Shown: positions 2,963-64,000 of the stretch, in pieces
Layout of the letters: each line of letters starts with the position of its first letter
How positions within the stretch are numbered: position 1 is the stretch's first letter
NCBI GenBank assembly: GCA_020439745.1
Contig: JAGQSC010000050.1
Span: 1-64,000 of the forward strand
Direction of reading: 5' to 3'
Origin: Acidobacteriota bacterium
Lineage (GTDB): Bacteria > Acidobacteriota > Holophagae > Acanthopleuribacterales > Acanthopleuribacteraceae
DNA length: 64,000 bases
Notes under the pieces: generated by a model
Seen by the model: only the letters and a program-made list of their open reading frames with translations
Databases searched by the model: none
What the model was told of the DNA's origin: nothing
Program-made: the position numbers and the translations under genes

Positions 2963-2988
2963 AAAAAAAGGGCCGCGTTCAGCGGCCC
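2961..2988 (-). terminator. Intrinsic terminator (rpmB side)
   Basis: A 7-bp GC stem GGGCCGC/GCGGCCC with a GTTCA loop (2970-2988). A run of nine A on the plus strand precedes it, which reads as a T-run after the stem for minus-strand transcription. It lies just past the rpmB stop, and the same stem may weakly stop the convergent sigma operon. Confidence 0.8.
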
Positions 2989-3013
2989 TCTTCGATTCAT
3001 AGATAAAACTGAC

Positions 3014-3253
3014 TCAGGTGACGTCAGACAAGGTTAATCCTTGCTTGTGCAAATAGGTCAAAAAACCCACCTTGGTGATGCTTTTCAATGTGCGTGCGGC
3101 CACGCGAACACGTACAAATCGTCCCAACTCAGGTACAAAAATACGTTTCGTGACCAGATTCGGACGAAAATGCTTATTGGTTCGGATGTGCGAGTGCGAC
3201 ACCTTTTTTCCTTTAAGCGGTTTCTTACCAGTAATTTGACAAACGCGAGACAT
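3014..3253 (-). CDS. rpmB: 50S ribosomal protein L28
   Basis: A 79-residue basic protein with the L28 signature: the start [15 protein letters not shown], then [14 protein letters not shown] and [17 protein letters not shown]. It is a structural protein of the large ribosomal subunit. Length is normal. It has only one Cys in the N-terminal half, so it is a zinc-free form. AGGAG lies eight bases before the ATG. It is monocistronic, ending at the strong terminator at 2961-2988 and separated from carB by about 100 bp that contain a possible promoter. Confidence 0.97.
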
Positions 3254-3301
3254 GTCGTGCTCCTATACGGGAATCCAGAAAAGGCCGCAGCCAAAGTCAG
3301 T

Positions 3302-3330
3302 AGCCTAGCGGCTTTTCCCTATTAGGTCAA
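3302..3330 (-). promoter_or_regulatory. Possible sigma-70 promoter for rpmB
   Basis: On the minus strand, TTGACC (3325-3330) is followed after exactly 17 bp by TAGGCT (3302-3307). The -35 is good, the -10 poor. It lies about 50 bp upstream of the rpmB start. Confidence 0.35.
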
Positions 3331-3353
3331 GGGATATTCAAGAAAAAACCTGG

Positions 3354-49161: not shown

Positions 49162-49445
49162 CCGACTTGATACACCAGGAGCGCGTGGTGGTTTTCTCCA
49201 CGCGCCATTGTGGCTATTGTGTCCGGGCCAAACGGCTCCTTGAACGCAAAAACATCCCATTCATCGAGATCGACTTGAATCGCAGCTCTGAAACGCGCCA
49301 GTGGCTGGTCAACAAAACAGGTATGTGGACCGTACCCCAGATCTTCGTTGATGGAGAAGTCATAGGCGGGTATCGAGAACTGGAAGCTATGGCACAGCAA
49401 GGTCGCTTTGATGACTTCGTCCTTTCTTCAATTACCGGTCATTGA
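49158..49445 (+). CDS. grxC: Glutaredoxin (GrxC type)
   Basis: A 95-residue dithiol glutaredoxin. Active site HCGYC at residue 18-22, [18 protein letters not shown] with the cis-Pro and the GSH-binding GG. It reduces protein disulfides and glutathione mixed disulfides in the cytoplasm. The ATG overlaps the pckA stop by four bases, so the two genes are co-translated; a functional link (redox protection of carbon-metabolism enzymes) is only inferred. Confidence 0.93.
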
Positions 49446-49592
49446 CAAGCTGCCGGAGAAGATAGCTCAGGACGCCAATCAGTTGCGAGAATGAAACAAA
49501 GGCTTCCTATCATTGGGATTCAAAGTAGGATACCCCCTAAGAACGGGGGGGGTGACATCAGTGGGTGCTCGATCCGTTCTATGCTCATGACC

Positions 49593-49623
49593 AAAAAAGA
49601 GCGGGACACGCCCGCTCCTTTTT
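49593..49623. terminator. Bidirectional intrinsic terminator
   Basis: GAGCGGG/CCCGCTC (49599-49617) with an ACACG loop, A-run before (49593-49598) and T-run after (49619-49623). It ends both the grx transcript and the hcp transcript from the other strand. Confidence 0.9.
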
Positions 49624-49643
49624 CTATCTTGATTGAGTTGTGA

Positions 49644-56780: not shown

Positions 56781-57878
56781 CTAGCCATCAAAGGAGATAT
56801 CTATTTGTAGACGAATCGGTTTTCCAGCTAGTGAAGCCGGAAGCGTGATGTTTACGGGGACCGAAATGGGCTCCACGTCATCAGATTTCACATCACGACC
56901 CTCAGAATTCCTTCCCTCGGAAGCTAGATTGGCAATTTCAGCCATCTCATCCAGCTCAGCAACTTCCAACGGACCCATATCGTCCAATTCAATCACTTCA
57001 GAATCATCCAATTGAGGAAGCTTGTCCTGAGCAGATTCTGAGGGAAGCGAGCCCACACTATTGGCGGAACCTACTTCTTCATCCTCAAATTCGATCTCAT
57101 CCACACTCATGGGAATGGGCTCTTCGTCAAAGGGGTTGGAAGGATCAGGCGCCAGTGGTGCACTGGTTTGAGGTTTAGGCAAAGCAGGCGCAGGTGAAGC
57201 GGGCCTCTGCGCACCCACTGGAGGAAGACTAGGCGGCTTTCGGGCTGGTGCCGCACTTGAAGCAGCCAGTTTGTCCTTCTCCATTTCCAAACCGTACTTG
57301 GCCGTCAAATTCTTCAGCACAAGTTTGCTGATGCCTTTGAGTGTCTCAAAAACACCATCTCCCTTAACCGCAATGGCCTCGAAATGAGGCATGTTGAAGC
57401 GGTTGACTTCTTTCTCCAACTGCTCAATCGTCAACGCATTCTTCATGTCTCGTTTGTTGTATTGGATGACATGGGGGACCGTAGAGAGATCCTGATTTTG
57501 TTCCTTGAGATTGGTGATCAGGTTATCGAAGCTGTCGATATTGGCTTCTAACATAGGCTCTTGTGAGTCCGCGACAAATACAACGCCGTCGGCACCCTTG
57601 AGCACCAATTTCCGAGTGGTGTCGTAAAAAACCTGGCCTGGTACCGTGTACAGCTGAATTTTTGTTTTCATGCCCCGAATACTTCCCAGATCGATGGGCA
57701 AAAAATCAAAAAACAGGGTTCGGTCGGTCTTCGTGGCCAAAGACAACATCTTGCCCTTCGAAACATCCGGCAAGGTGTCGTAGATGTACTGCAAATTGGA
57801 TGTCTTGCCACACAGGCCGGGTCCGTAATAAACCACTTTTGCCGTTAACTCTTTGGTGGCGTAATTGAATAAAACCAT
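56781..57878 (-). CDS. MglA-like GTPase with long C-terminal extension
   Basis: A 365-residue Ras-like GTPase. Residues 1-195 are MglA-type: P-loop YYGPGLCGKTSNLQYIY, switch region TDRTLFFDFLPIDLG, YTVPGQVFYDTTRK, and NKRD. The remaining 170 residues are a Pro/Ala linker (about 210-245), an acidic, probably disordered stretch, and a C-terminal strand block ending VPVNITLPASLAGKPIRLQIDIS. MglA sets cell polarity or motility with a Roadblock GAP (MglB). A second, short GTPase with a Roadblock gene is at 59245-60326. GGAG lies seven bases before the ATG. Confidence 0.88.
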   Translation of the reverse strand: MVLFNYATKELTAKVVYYGPGLCGKTSNLQYIYDTLPDVSKGKMLSLATKTDRTLFFDFLPIDLGSIRGMKTKIQLYTVPGQVFYDTTRKLVLKGADGVVFVADSQEPMLEANIDSFDNLITNLKEQNQDLSTVPHVIQYNKRDMKNALTIEQLEKEVNRFNMPHFEAIAVKGDGVFETLKGISKLVLKNLTAKYGLEMEKDKLAASSAAPARKPPSLPPVGAQRPASPAPALPKPQTSAPLAPDPSNPFDEEPIPMSVDEIEFEDEEVGSANSVGSLPSESAQDKLPQLDDSEVIELDDMGPLEVAELDEMAEIANLASEGRNSEGRDVKSDDVEPISVPVNITLPASLAGKPIRLQIDISFDG

Positions 57879-58053: not shown

Positions 58054-58082
58054 TTTTCAACCTCGCCCGCTTAACCTATGAT
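58054..58082 (+). promoter_or_regulatory. Probable promoter of udk
   Basis: TTTTCA (58054-58059), 17-bp spacer, TATGAT (58077-58082, 5 of 6). The leader would be only about 13 bases. Confidence 0.45.
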
Positions 58083-58101
58083 TCTTCTCTGGGAGGTTGG
58101 C

Positions 58102-58737
58102 GTGATTACAATTGGCATCGCTGGGGGTTCCGGAAGCGGCAAGAGCACCTTTTCCAAACTGGTCATGGAAAACCTCCATCAAGAACGCGTGGCGTGCATC
58201 AAGCATGATGCATATTACAAGCCTTTGGACCACCTATCTCTTGAGGAACGCGCCAAAGTGAACTTCGACCACCCCAGCTCCTTGGACACAGGCCAAATGA
58301 TCGAAGACATTATGGCACTCAAAAACGGCCAGGCCATTACCGTTCCTGAATACGATTTCAGTCGCCATACCAGGGCCACCGAATCTCATCTGCTGGAACC
58401 ACCCGTGGTGCTCATCGTGGAAGGGATTCTCATATTTGCGGAACCCGAACTTCGCGGTCTTTTCGATATTAAGGTGTTTATTGATGCTGATGATGATGAC
58501 CGCTTGATGCGCCGCATGTTACGTGACATTCATGACCGTAGCCGCGACGTATCGAGCATTGTGGAACAGTATTGCGCCACGGTCAAACCGATGCATTTGG
58601 AATTCGTGGAACCCAGCAAGCGGTGGGCCGATATTATTGTTCCGGGAGGTGGCCAAAACAAGGTCTGCCTGGACCTCATCAGTCGCAAACTTCACATGCT
58701 CGTGAACCGCGAATATCCTGAACAATTGCACAAATAG
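58102..58737 (+). CDS. udk: Uridine kinase
   Basis: A 211-residue P-loop kinase phosphorylating uridine or cytidine. GIAGGSGSGKSTFSKLV at the start, KHDAYYKPLDHLS, FDHPSSLDTGQM, PEYDFSRHTR and VEGILIFAEPELR are the udk family motifs. The GTG at 58102 with GGGAGG five bases upstream is preferred to an ATG at 58078 without a site. Pyrimidine salvage, complementing carAB. First rightward gene after the leftward block. Confidence 0.95.
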   Translation: MITIGIAGGSGSGKSTFSKLVMENLHQERVACIKHDAYYKPLDHLSLEERAKVNFDHPSSLDTGQMIEDIMALKNGQAITVPEYDFSRHTRATESHLLEPPVVLIVEGILIFAEPELRGLFDIKVFIDADDDDRLMRRMLRDIHDRSRDVSSIVEQYCATVKPMHLEFVEPSKRWADIIVPGGGQNKVCLDLISRKLHMLVNREYPEQLHK

Positions 58738-58738
58738 T

Positions 58739-58757
58739 CCCGATTAAACGGGCTTTT
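58739..58757 (+). terminator. Weak terminator after udk
   Basis: CCCG/CGGG stem over ATTAAA, then CTTTT. It begins two bases after the udk stop. The stem is short. Confidence 0.35.
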
Positions 58758-58763
58758 GGCCAC

Positions 58764-58986
58764 CTTTCCACAAAGCCTGTGGAAAACTTTGCGGAAAATG
58801 GTGTGGAAAACGGCTTCCGTCGCCACATATGCAGCGATTGTGCAGATTGAACTCAAGATTGTGCAGCTCAAAAACAGAGACGGGCACCAATTATTTTGCT
58901 TGACACAGCGCCCGGCTTCCATGGTAGCCCAAATCGTCACCACCGGAGAAAATCGTGGAAAACACCTGTGGAAAATTTGTGGAAAA
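58764..58986. other. oriC: DnaA-box-like cluster, candidate replication origin
   Basis: Within the 507-bp gene-free stretch 58738-59244 there are four exact TGTGGAAAA copies at 58778-58786, 58802-58810, 58967-58975 and 58978-58986. One-mismatch copies lie at 58764-58772 (opposite orientation, CTTTCCACA), 58790-58798 and 58954-58962. TTTTCCACA is the cyanobacterial DnaA-box consensus and one base from TTATCCACA. Two direct GATTGTGCAG copies sit 21 bp apart at 58836 and 58857. An AT-rich stretch follows at about 59160-59220. Gene direction changes here from mainly leftward to rightward. dnaA itself is not in the window. Confidence 0.55.
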
Positions 58987-59168
58987 TTCGCCCAATTGAC
59001 CAAAAATCAGCGCTTTATGACCGATTCGGGGGCGCGTTTTTGCGGTCAATGGACCAGTCCTGAGACATCGCGAAATGCGATGTGAAGGACCACCTAGTCA
59101 TAAGGGCTACAAATCCTTCATTTCTTGCGGGCACTTCAACCAGTTTGGTGAGCAGAATGCACTATCCT

Positions 59169-59177
59169 TGCTATAAT
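59169..59177 (+). promoter_or_regulatory. Extended -10 promoter of the Roadblock/MglA operon
   Basis: TGCTATAAT, a perfect extended -10, 68 bp before the Roadblock gene. No good -35, as is usual for this class. Confidence 0.65.
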
Positions 59178-59244
59178 GACTAAGTTTTGAATAATATGAC
59201 CACAAACAGCAGCATATAGGTCGGATCAAAAGGGTGAATCATCT

Positions 59245-59727
59245 ATGGATCTAATTATGTTTGACGAGGAATATCGAAAGATTCAGGCCGTCATCGACCA
59301 GCTGCACGCTGACGCGCGTAGCAAAGTTGTTTTCCTGGTAGACAAGAATGGCCAACATATCGCAGGGTCTGGAGAAGTAGAGGCAATTGACGCCACTTCT
59401 CTTGCATCCTTGACTGCAGGCAATGTTGCAGCAACCGATGGCTTAGCAAAACTGATTGGCGAAAAAGAATTTTCCATATTGTTCCACGAAGGAAAGCGTG
59501 ACCACATTCACATTTCGATCGTAGCCAATCGATTGATCCTGGTCGTCATTTTCGATGACCGGTCCTCCCTGGGCTTGGTGCGATTGCGTGTGAAAAAAAC
59601 GTCGGGTGAACTTGAGGACATTTTCAAAGAAATCATGGAGAAAGCCTCAAGGAGCCAGAAGTCCGAAGAGATCGAATCGGCATTTGCCGAAATTACCGAT
59701 GAAGACATTGATAACTTGTTCGGCTAG
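59245..59727 (+). CDS. Roadblock/LC7-domain protein (MglB-like)
   Basis: A 160-residue protein. The Roadblock/LC7 fold spans about residues 10-120 (VVFLVDKNGQHIAGSGEVEAIDATSLASLTAGN, then FHEGKRDHIHISIVANRLILVVIF). The C-terminal 40 residues are a charged helix (EIMEKASRSQKSEEIE). In the Mgl system this is the GTPase-activating partner of MglA; the MglA-type gene follows 11 bp later. ATG at 59245; AGGG lies about 11 bases upstream. Confidence 0.88.
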   Translation: MDLIMFDEEYRKIQAVIDQLHADARSKVVFLVDKNGQHIAGSGEVEAIDATSLASLTAGNVAATDGLAKLIGEKEFSILFHEGKRDHIHISIVANRLILVVIFDDRSSLGLVRLRVKKTSGELEDIFKEIMEKASRSQKSEEIESAFAEITDEDIDNLFG

Positions 59728-61784: not shown

Positions 61785-62603
61785 ATGCACCAGGCCGAAC
61801 GACAAAAGCTACGCATCCGTCGATGGATGATGGGATTGGGGGCCTATGCCATCAATTTGAGCTTCGTCAAGATGGCAGAAATCATAGAACTAGACACTAT
61901 GCCCAAGCCCGCGTTTGTGCTGATGATTACCACGGTCATTGCCTGGAATGCCTTGATTTATTTGGCTTTCAGGACCAATTTCAACCTCAGATTCACAGAT
62001 CCCAGTATGACTTTGATCCAGATGTCGTTCAGTTATTACTGGGGCATTATTCCCCTGTATACCATGCCACACGTGCGCTTGCTCGTCATCCTGGCGATCC
62101 TGCCTTCATTCTGTTTCGGTATGCTGCGTTTGAACCTCGCAGGACACTTGAAAGCGGCAAGCACGATCTCACTCGTATACCTAGGTGTATTAATCGCCGA
62201 TTTTCTGCAGCAGAGACCCGATTTCAACCTGTCACTGGAACTGTTTCAGTTTGTCGTGGTGCTGGTGATGTTGGTCTGGTTCACCGTATTCGGTAGTTTT
62301 GTATCCAACATGAGACATAAACTCCGGCGTCAGGGAACCGAACTTCAAAAGATCAACTCCGCGTATGTCGACGAAATTGAACAGCGAAAAGAAGCCCAGC
62401 ATGAGTTAGAACAGGCACTTGCCAAGGTCAAGAAACTAACCGGTTTTATTCCCATCTGCGCGCACTGCAAAAACATTCGTGATGATTCCGGTTACTGGAC
62501 TGAACTCGAAGTGTATCTTTCTGAAAACTCCGAAGCCGCTCTGAGCCACTCAATTTGCCCCAAATGCAAGGAACACTACTTTCCTGATTATGAATTCGAT
62601 TAA
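61785..62603 (+). CDS. Polytopic membrane protein with coiled coil and C-terminal zinc ribbon
   Basis: A 272-residue protein. Six hydrophobic segments in residues 15-175, a coiled coil (about 180-220), then FIPICAHCKNIRDDSGYWTELE and HSICPKCKEHYFP, two CxxC pairs. This zinc-ribbon ending is known as the tail of sensor kinases and GGDEF or receiver proteins, where the membrane and coiled coil precede a signalling domain. Here no GGDEF or kinase is present. ATG at 61785 after AAGGG; GTG 61779 is an alternative. It overlaps murQ by four bases at its 3' end. Confidence 0.78.
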   Translation: MHQAERQKLRIRRWMMGLGAYAINLSFVKMAEIIELDTMPKPAFVLMITTVIAWNALIYLAFRTNFNLRFTDPSMTLIQMSFSYYWGIIPLYTMPHVRLLVILAILPSFCFGMLRLNLAGHLKAASTISLVYLGVLIADFLQQRPDFNLSLELFQFVVVLVMLVWFTVFGSFVSNMRHKLRRQGTELQKINSAYVDEIEQRKEAQHELEQALAKVKKLTGFIPICAHCKNIRDDSGYWTELEVYLSENSEAALSHSICPKCKEHYFPDYEFD

Positions 62604-64000
62604 GGGTTCATCCATTCATGGATCGGCACACCTGAAGCCAGAGCTTCACAAGCATCATCGCGTGCCAAATCACGCCGCGCCATGATAATGGCACGAGGAA
62701 CCACTCCAGTCTGACCGGCACAAACCGTCACCCTCTCATCGATGGACATGTCGGGCGTCAAACCCGCCGCTTGCAGGAGCACCGATTCGGCTTCTATTGA
62801 CTCCAGCTGGGCCACTTGTTGTACGATGCGTACGGCACGTAACCACAGCTTTCGGTTGCTGATCCGCAAGTCAATCATCAGGTTGCCCAAGACCTTGCCT
62901 GCCCGCACAAAGCCGAGTGACGAAATCACATTCAAGGCCCATTTCACGGTCAACAACTGCAGCCAACCATTTTCACCCATGGCCGGTTGCAAGATTGCAG
63001 TCAAATCAACGGAATCCCTGACGGTTTCCCCCAACGCAATGCAAGTACCCAAGCAGGTAGGCCGCCTGGAAAACGCAATCGATTCCGGAGGCGTGTGGGA
63101 AAGCCGGTAGTTTCGCCAGCCACCTCGAACAAATGCTCGCACATCGCTGAAAGAAGCACCAAAAGTGGGACCGCATTCGGCCGCATCCATGATTGCCGAC
63201 AATCCATAACGCCGGTCAGTCAGGTATTGAACGCCCCTACCACTCCGCAACGACTGGCCAACACTGGCAACCGTATCGCTCAAGCGATGTGCGCGCTTTA
63301 AGTATCGATCGAGCGTTTGTTCCAACGCGGACAAATCTGGTGCACTTTCGCCCAACAACCAACTCAAAAGAACCCAGGTAGCACTTCCGCCCTTCAGCCT
63401 GGTTGACCCTGTGATGGCCTCAGGTCCCAACACCGGATTCATCAACATACCCCGATCCAATTGCCTTAAGCTGACGAGGAAATCTGTGACGGTAAGCGCA
63501 CCAATCGCAATAGATGACACACTCTCAGGTGAATTAAACCCCAACACAATCACCCGTGCCCCTTGGTTGTGCATCCAGTGCGCCGCATGTAACACGTAGG
63601 GCGCCGATAATCCGCAGGTGACACCCAGCAATAAGTGCGGACCGGGCATGCGATTCATGAGCGCCTTTAGCTGTTCTACACCGGATCCTGGATTGTCTTC
63701 AGCACCCTCTTGGGCGCGGATAAGCGCCGCTGAACCGCCGGCCATCAGGAAGGCCACCCGCCGATGCTTCGACGAGAAATGATCGGTAGCCATGAATGCT
63801 ATTCGACCACTGGTGCCTGCACCCATAACCACGACGGTTCCGCCCCTGCCCCACGTCTCATGAACCCAGCCCCTACCCTCCAAGACTTGACTCATCAGTT
63901 CAGGTGATCGGAGTCCAGCACCCCAGTCAGAACCCAGCAGCTCGCTGTCGACCTCAGAAAATACTCGTATCTGTTCGGCCAAATCCATTTGATCCAGGCG
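62600..64000 (-). CDS. murQ: MurQ/GCKR-like double-SIS protein, partial at window edge
   Basis: At least 466 residues; cut at 64000. The frame is open to the edge and RLDQMDLAEQ resembles the MurQ N-terminus, so the true start is outside; an ATG at 63988 is only an internal Met. SIS1 has VVMGAGTSGRIAFMATDHF and EGAEDN. VLGPEAITGSTRLKGGSAT and, later, GNLMIDLRISNRKLWLRA match MurQ, but about 120 residues are inserted between them, as in double-SIS glucokinase-regulator-like proteins. MurQ cleaves N-acetylmuramate 6-phosphate. C-terminal lid from about 400. Confidence 0.78.
   Translation of the reverse strand, partial: RLDQMDLAEQIRVFSEVDSELLGSDWGAGLRSPELMSQVLEGRGWVHETWGRGGTVVVMGAGTSGRIAFMATDHFSSKHRRVAFLMAGGSAALIRAQEGAEDNPGSGVEQLKALMNRMPGPHLLLGVTCGLSAPYVLHAAHWMHNQGARVIVLGFNSPESVSSIAIGALTVTDFLVSLRQLDRGMLMNPVLGPEAITGSTRLKGGSATWVLLSWLLGESAPDLSALEQTLDRYLKRAHRLSDTVASVGQSLRSGRGVQYLTDRRYGLSAIMDAAECGPTFGASFSDVRAFVRGGWRNYRLSHTPPESIAFSRRPTCLGTCIALGETVRDSVDLTAILQPAMGENGWLQLLTVKWALNVISSLGFVRAGKVLGNLMIDLRISNRKLWLRAVRIVQQVAQLESIEAESVLLQAAGLTPDMSIDERVTVCAGQTGVVPRAIIMARRDLARDDACEALASGVPIHEWMNP

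Follow-up and report, generated by a model that had tools for sequence, protein, structure and literature searches.

What would DnaA do at a dense cluster of its binding sites that lies away from dnaA? The question is raised by positions 58764 to 58986 of a 64,000-nucleotide stretch of an Acidobacteriota genome (assembly GCA_020439745.1, contig JAGQSC010000050.1, positions 1 to 64,000; hereafter the window), for which the original prediction had proposed either a chromosomal origin (oriC) or a DnaA-titration or regulation site controlling the flanking GTPase genes. The analysis described here indicates that the cluster is probably a chromosomal site of DnaA recycling, resembling the DnaA-reactivating sequences (DARS) and situated outside the Proteobacteria. 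The description of DARS loci comes from E. coli, and their conservation has been reported within the proteobacteria (PMC10380432, PMC4245941); a 2026 review gives it as unknown whether there is any regulation of DnaA-ADP/ATP interconversion in B. subtilis (PMC13220808).

Arrangement of the DnaA boxes

Exact copies of TTTTCCACA were located at 58778, 58802, 58967 and 58978, all on the minus strand, and boxes with one mismatch at 58764 (+), 58790 (-) and 58954 (-). The four exact and three one-mismatch copies previously counted in these 223 bp were recovered at their positions, and six of the seven share one orientation, as had been stated. The Poisson probability is 9e-12 for at least seven boxes (up to one mismatch) per 223 bp, and about 2e-12 for at least four exact TTTTCCACA per 209 bp. 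The 9-mer could have been common across the genome; its 67 copies in the 5.1-Mb draft genome, compared with 70 for the reversed control, are at chance level and amount to no enrichment.

The whole element (58764-58986, + strand as oriented by box I) has start-to-start spacings of 14, 12, 12, 165 and 11 bp, all of which are retained in the sister species (genome G001). Box I (CTTTCCACA, one mismatch; 58764-58772, plus strand) is inverted with respect to the other boxes, and is an exact TTTTCCACA in the sister genome. It stands head-to-head with box II (TTTTCCACA; 58778-58786, minus strand), 14 bp from start to start, and is followed at intervals of 12 bp by box III (TTTTCCGCA, one mismatch; 58790-58798, minus strand) and box IV (TTTTCCACA; 58802-58810, minus strand). 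Two distal boxes, V (58967-58975) and VI (58978-58986), both TTTTCCACA on the minus strand, lie at offsets +203 and +214; in the sister species the former is kept at +203 and a one-mismatch box occupies +214. The extra one-mismatch box TTTTCCACG (58954-58962, minus strand) was not found at the matching place in that species.

The core of this element was compared with E. coli. In the window, box I at 58764 (+) faces box II at 58778 (-) and box III at 58790 (-), and the three are found in an intergenic region (58738-59244) away from oriC. In E. coli MG1655 (NC_000913), boxes are present at 813107 (+), 813121 (-) and 813133 (-) in the bioD-uvrB gap, and at 2969135 (+), 2969149 (-) and 2969161 (-) near mutH. 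The spacing is 14 and 12 bp at both E. coli loci, identical to that in the window and in its relatives. We take the bioD-uvrB gap to be DARS1 and the gap adjacent to mutH to be DARS2. At the E. coli DARS cores, ADP-DnaA is able to exchange its nucleotide. Published deletion primers for boxes I-III of DARS2 flank the trio at 2969135-2969161 (PMC4585315), and the DARS core is described as three uniquely arranged boxes, box I opposed to box II, promoting head-to-head contact of ADP-DnaA and release of ADP (PMC8682772).

The likeness extends beyond the core. DARS1 and DARS2, like the window element, are non-coding, lie away from oriC and have an accessory region 3' of the core; one-mismatch minus-strand boxes at +203 and +223 of DARS1 and an exact plus-strand box at +211 of DARS2 recall the distal boxes located about 200 bp downstream in the window. 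The window element differs in having TTTTCCACA rather than TTATCCACA as box sequence, an additional fourth in-phase box (none was found at the box-IV spacing in DARS1 or DARS2), a tandem distal pair, a TTGCACA-N-TGTGCA-type site instead of an IHF consensus near +120, and a host in the phylum Acidobacteriota. Since the exact box spacing equals that of the E. coli DARS sites, these comparisons of sequence suggest that control by DnaA recycling extends well beyond the proteobacteria.

Conservation of the element and its spacing class

In the sister species, a segment of about 1.1 kb comprising udk and the element is inverted, while the flanking MglA-like (left) and Roadblock (right) genes keep their order; the cluster remains at the 3' end of udk. 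When the window was aligned with this genome by blastn, only 47 bp around the core could be aligned in the cluster-bearing intergenic DNA, the spacer having diverged. All seven family genomes examined carry the element, in one to four copies each, and no neighbouring gene is shared between loci of different genera. The retained spacings, the inversion of the segment and the lack of shared neighbours suggest that the cluster is a site of protein-DNA assembly which would work irrespective of its surroundings. Four copies, two of them 741 bp apart, occur in the single 11.8-Mb chromosome of Sulfidibacter corallicola, and other large genomes of the family are likewise multi-copy.

A relaxed 14/12 pattern, for which DARS1, DARS2 and a sample of the gammaproteobacterial class served as calibration, gave a single match in this genome, the window cluster itself. 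Matches were obtained in 7/7 family genomes (reversed control, 0 in 33 genomes), in 132 of 386 Acidobacteriota genomes (5 for the reversed control) and, with matches not individually checked, in 186 of the 219 genomes from the gammaproteobacterial class, from which DARS is known. The phylum rate of 34% depends on boxes of the form TTWTNCACA, so that divergent copies are missed, and a few of the matches with three mismatches will be due to chance.

To compare spacings, a box pattern with two free gaps was run on the 386 Acidobacteriota genomes, and several spacing classes were obtained. Every locus tested in the classes 11/12 (24 loci), 13/12, 15/11, 18/11 (5) and 11/11 (5) has dnaA within about 2 kb, as have the tested 13/14 (2), 15/22 (1) and 12/11 (1) loci. 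The corresponding figure for 14/12 triplets is 0/11, and neither dnaA, dnaN, recF nor yidC was found near 60 fetched 14/12 loci. Isolated spacings that lack dnaA occurred in a few cases, no more than chance could account for. Among loci picked only for tandem 12/12 boxes, the nearest opposed box was 14 bp upstream in 21 cases and elsewhere within 9-30 bp in 1. Outside families f1 and f3 the loci were selected by pattern; conservation of the core is biased there, and that of the distal box and the +83 site, together with the absence of dnaA, is unbiased. A geometric signature of 35 bp can pick out DARS-like loci in a further phylum and tell them apart from oriC, so that it becomes possible to test directly how general DnaA recycling is.

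With respect to the origins themselves, the lineage-specific spacing classes seen in Acidobacteriota (11/12, 13/12 with 15/11, 18/11 and 11/11) may be of use as a marker when oriC is to be predicted. A bipartite origin is suggested for family f22 by the presence around dnaA of two oppositely oriented box sets, separated by about 1.8 kb.

A second conserved feature lies between the core and the distal boxes. The putative accessory site TTGAACTCAAGATTGTGCAG (58847-58866, plus strand; offset +83 to +102) is the local form of a TTGCACA-N-TGTGCA-like site common to most of the acidobacterial copies at +83 to +103. TGCAC is found at +84 in 7/7 f3 copies and at +85 to +87 in most of 39 copies outside f1 and f3, and GTGCA at +97 to +99 in 10/13 f1 copies. 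This positional conservation points to a putative accessory DNA-binding factor. An IHF consensus near +120 is present in several f3, Lysobacteraceae, Burkholderiales and Hahella copies and was not found in family f1. In the Lysobacteraceae copies, another conserved palindrome, TTGGTGAAAAAAGTGCCAA, takes the place of the accessory site, and most of them also have the IHF consensus at +121. Exact distal boxes concentrate at +180 to +219 (11/13 copies in f1, from bin counts).

Proposed role and rival explanations

If the element works like DARS, for which the argument is its geometry, ADP-DnaA would bind head-to-head at boxes I and II of the core, as the E. coli protein does on DARS1 and DARS2, and AAA+ contact at the core would lead to release of ADP from DnaA. 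A protein at the accessory site, together with DnaA on the distal boxes, may introduce a bend or loop in the DNA and determine the timing or the geometry of the reaction. The released apo-DnaA could then rebind ATP and start the next round at oriC (dnaA-dnaN).

A number of observations weigh against recycling of DnaA at this site. Boxes I and III are each one mismatch off. The IHF motif WATCAANNNNTTR (up to one mismatch) is absent near +120 in the window copy, its sole match being at +241, so that the copy departs from DARS2 in this respect. DARS1 of E. coli is not known to need an IHF site. Among the Acidobacteriota, family f2, most of f10 and most of f47 are without a match, and in these either the element is absent or the box sequence is different. 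The genome is a draft with the element and oriC on separate contigs. Pattern matching, moreover, does not discriminate between a site of nucleotide exchange and some other complex in which DnaA molecules meet head-to-head.

A broader proposal, which the balance of the data slightly favours, is that DARS-type recycling is old and widespread in bacteria rather than proteobacterial, and that Acidobacteriota have an architecture of their own: a four-box core, a group of distal boxes and, at +83 to +103, the conserved TTGCACA-N-TGTGCA accessory site, at which a putative regulator would replace IHF/Fis in replication timing. Reports of Fis are confined to gammaproteobacteria that are related to E. 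coli (PMC4245941).

The main rival is a datA-like or titration site, at which the boxes would bind DnaA or promote ATP hydrolysis and so lower free ATP-DnaA. This possibility is unlikely. In its favour, six or seven boxes are gathered at a non-origin locus, some of the larger family genomes carry more copies, and titrating clusters which lie outside oriC and restrain initiation are known, as in B. subtilis and Streptomyces (PMC5742627, PMC13220808). E. coli datA is likewise a non-origin cluster with separated box groups. Its essential boxes, however, have a single orientation and lie on both sides of an IHF site (PMC5742627), whereas in the window the opposed box at a fixed 14 bp is the most constrained feature and no IHF consensus lies between the box groups. 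Because the datA boxes share one direction, titration explains the box cluster and not the strict opposed pair; nor does titration alone need an exact spacing kept across the phylum. A 14/12 core that is fixed across the phylum is the feature found for the window element. The earlier suggestion of a DnaA-titration or regulation site is close to our reading in proposing DnaA regulation away from oriC, but in its geometry the site corresponds to DARS reactivation and not to plain titration.

It is improbable that the cluster is a switch through which DnaA controls the transcription of a neighbour, be it udk, the divergent MglA-like gene or the Roadblock-MglA operon. The element is indeed intergenic and upstream of Roadblock-mglA. 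In the sister species, however, it lies on the other side of udk, inverted away from Roadblock and still at the udk 3' end, while the TATAAT upstream of Roadblock (59172-59177 in the window) is kept there although the element is no longer on that side. Loci of different genera, as noted, have unrelated neighbours. Promoter control of Roadblock/MglA was dropped on these grounds, and with it the proposed control of the flanking GTPase genes.

It is very improbable that the cluster is oriC or an additional origin remote from dnaA. A dense box cluster adjoining a partial change of gene direction had made the proposal attractive. The dnaA gene, however, is on another contig (C63, 575.6-576.9 kb) with dnaN directly 3' of it; the gap between them contains TTTTCCACA boxes, and GC skew turns there from negative to positive. 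On the window contig (C33), skew has the same sign throughout 334 kb: all 33 of the 10-kb steps making up the first 330 kb are negative, and the sign does not turn at 58.8 kb; these values were read from stretches of a draft genome. The skew check that had been proposed for the cluster thus leads to dnaA-dnaN. In the complete genome of Sulfidibacter corallicola, of the same family (G003, NZ_CP071793), skew turns at dnaA (4.93 Mb) and the elements are elsewhere, at 0.73, 1.945, 1.946 and 1.976 Mb; the sampled skew outside the dnaA region is mosaic. Origins at dnaA-dnaN have the same box sequence as the window element, but their other spacing classes, adjacent dnaA and skew switch are all absent from it, and the 14/12 class is never found at dnaA. 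Skew, dnaA position and spacing class together rule out both forms of the origin proposal. A DnaA-like gene on contig C65 (4.7 kb) was also considered as a replication regulator and rejected, as by length and weak match it looks like an IstB-type mobile-element ATPase; that contig encodes an IstB-like ATPase and an RHS/intein-like protein.

Lastly, a site for a non-DnaA protein recognising TGTGGAAAA would be conceivable in that the boxes are identified from their sequence, but it can hardly be credited, since the same 9-mer fills the dnaA-dnaN origin here and in related genomes, and substitutions follow the DnaA consensus TTWTNCACA, with TTATCCACA forms in genome G002 and in proteobacteria; the original identification as DnaA boxes is supported.

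Flanking genes and minor features

The element is flanked by udk (58078-58737, plus strand; uridine kinase family, PF00485), which is inverted along with it in the sister species, and by a Roadblock/LC7 gene (59245-59727, plus strand; PF03259). The 507-bp gap between them (58738-59244) had been called the only gene-free stretch longer than 300 bp in the window; it is the longest internal one, and two others are present at 49162-49643 (482 bp) and 2963-3353 (391 bp). The switch in gene direction also exists, but not at the boxes: it falls between udk and the MglA-like gene, at 57.9-58.1 kb. Likewise, udk had been placed among the rightward genes to the right of the cluster; it sits to the left, and the gene at 62600-63988 again runs leftward.

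Within the cluster region no Rfam match was obtained and the fold is ordinary, and a structured RNA was dropped as an explanation for these reasons; no intrinsic terminator was found at the cluster. A TTGACA word (58900-58905, plus strand) lies at offset +136, where it recurs in 4/13 family copies, and within +135 to +139 in 6/13. The MglA-like Ras/Arf GTPase encoded at 56781-57878 has a long acidic proline-rich C-terminal extension and is a second MglA-type gene near the Roadblock-MglA pair.
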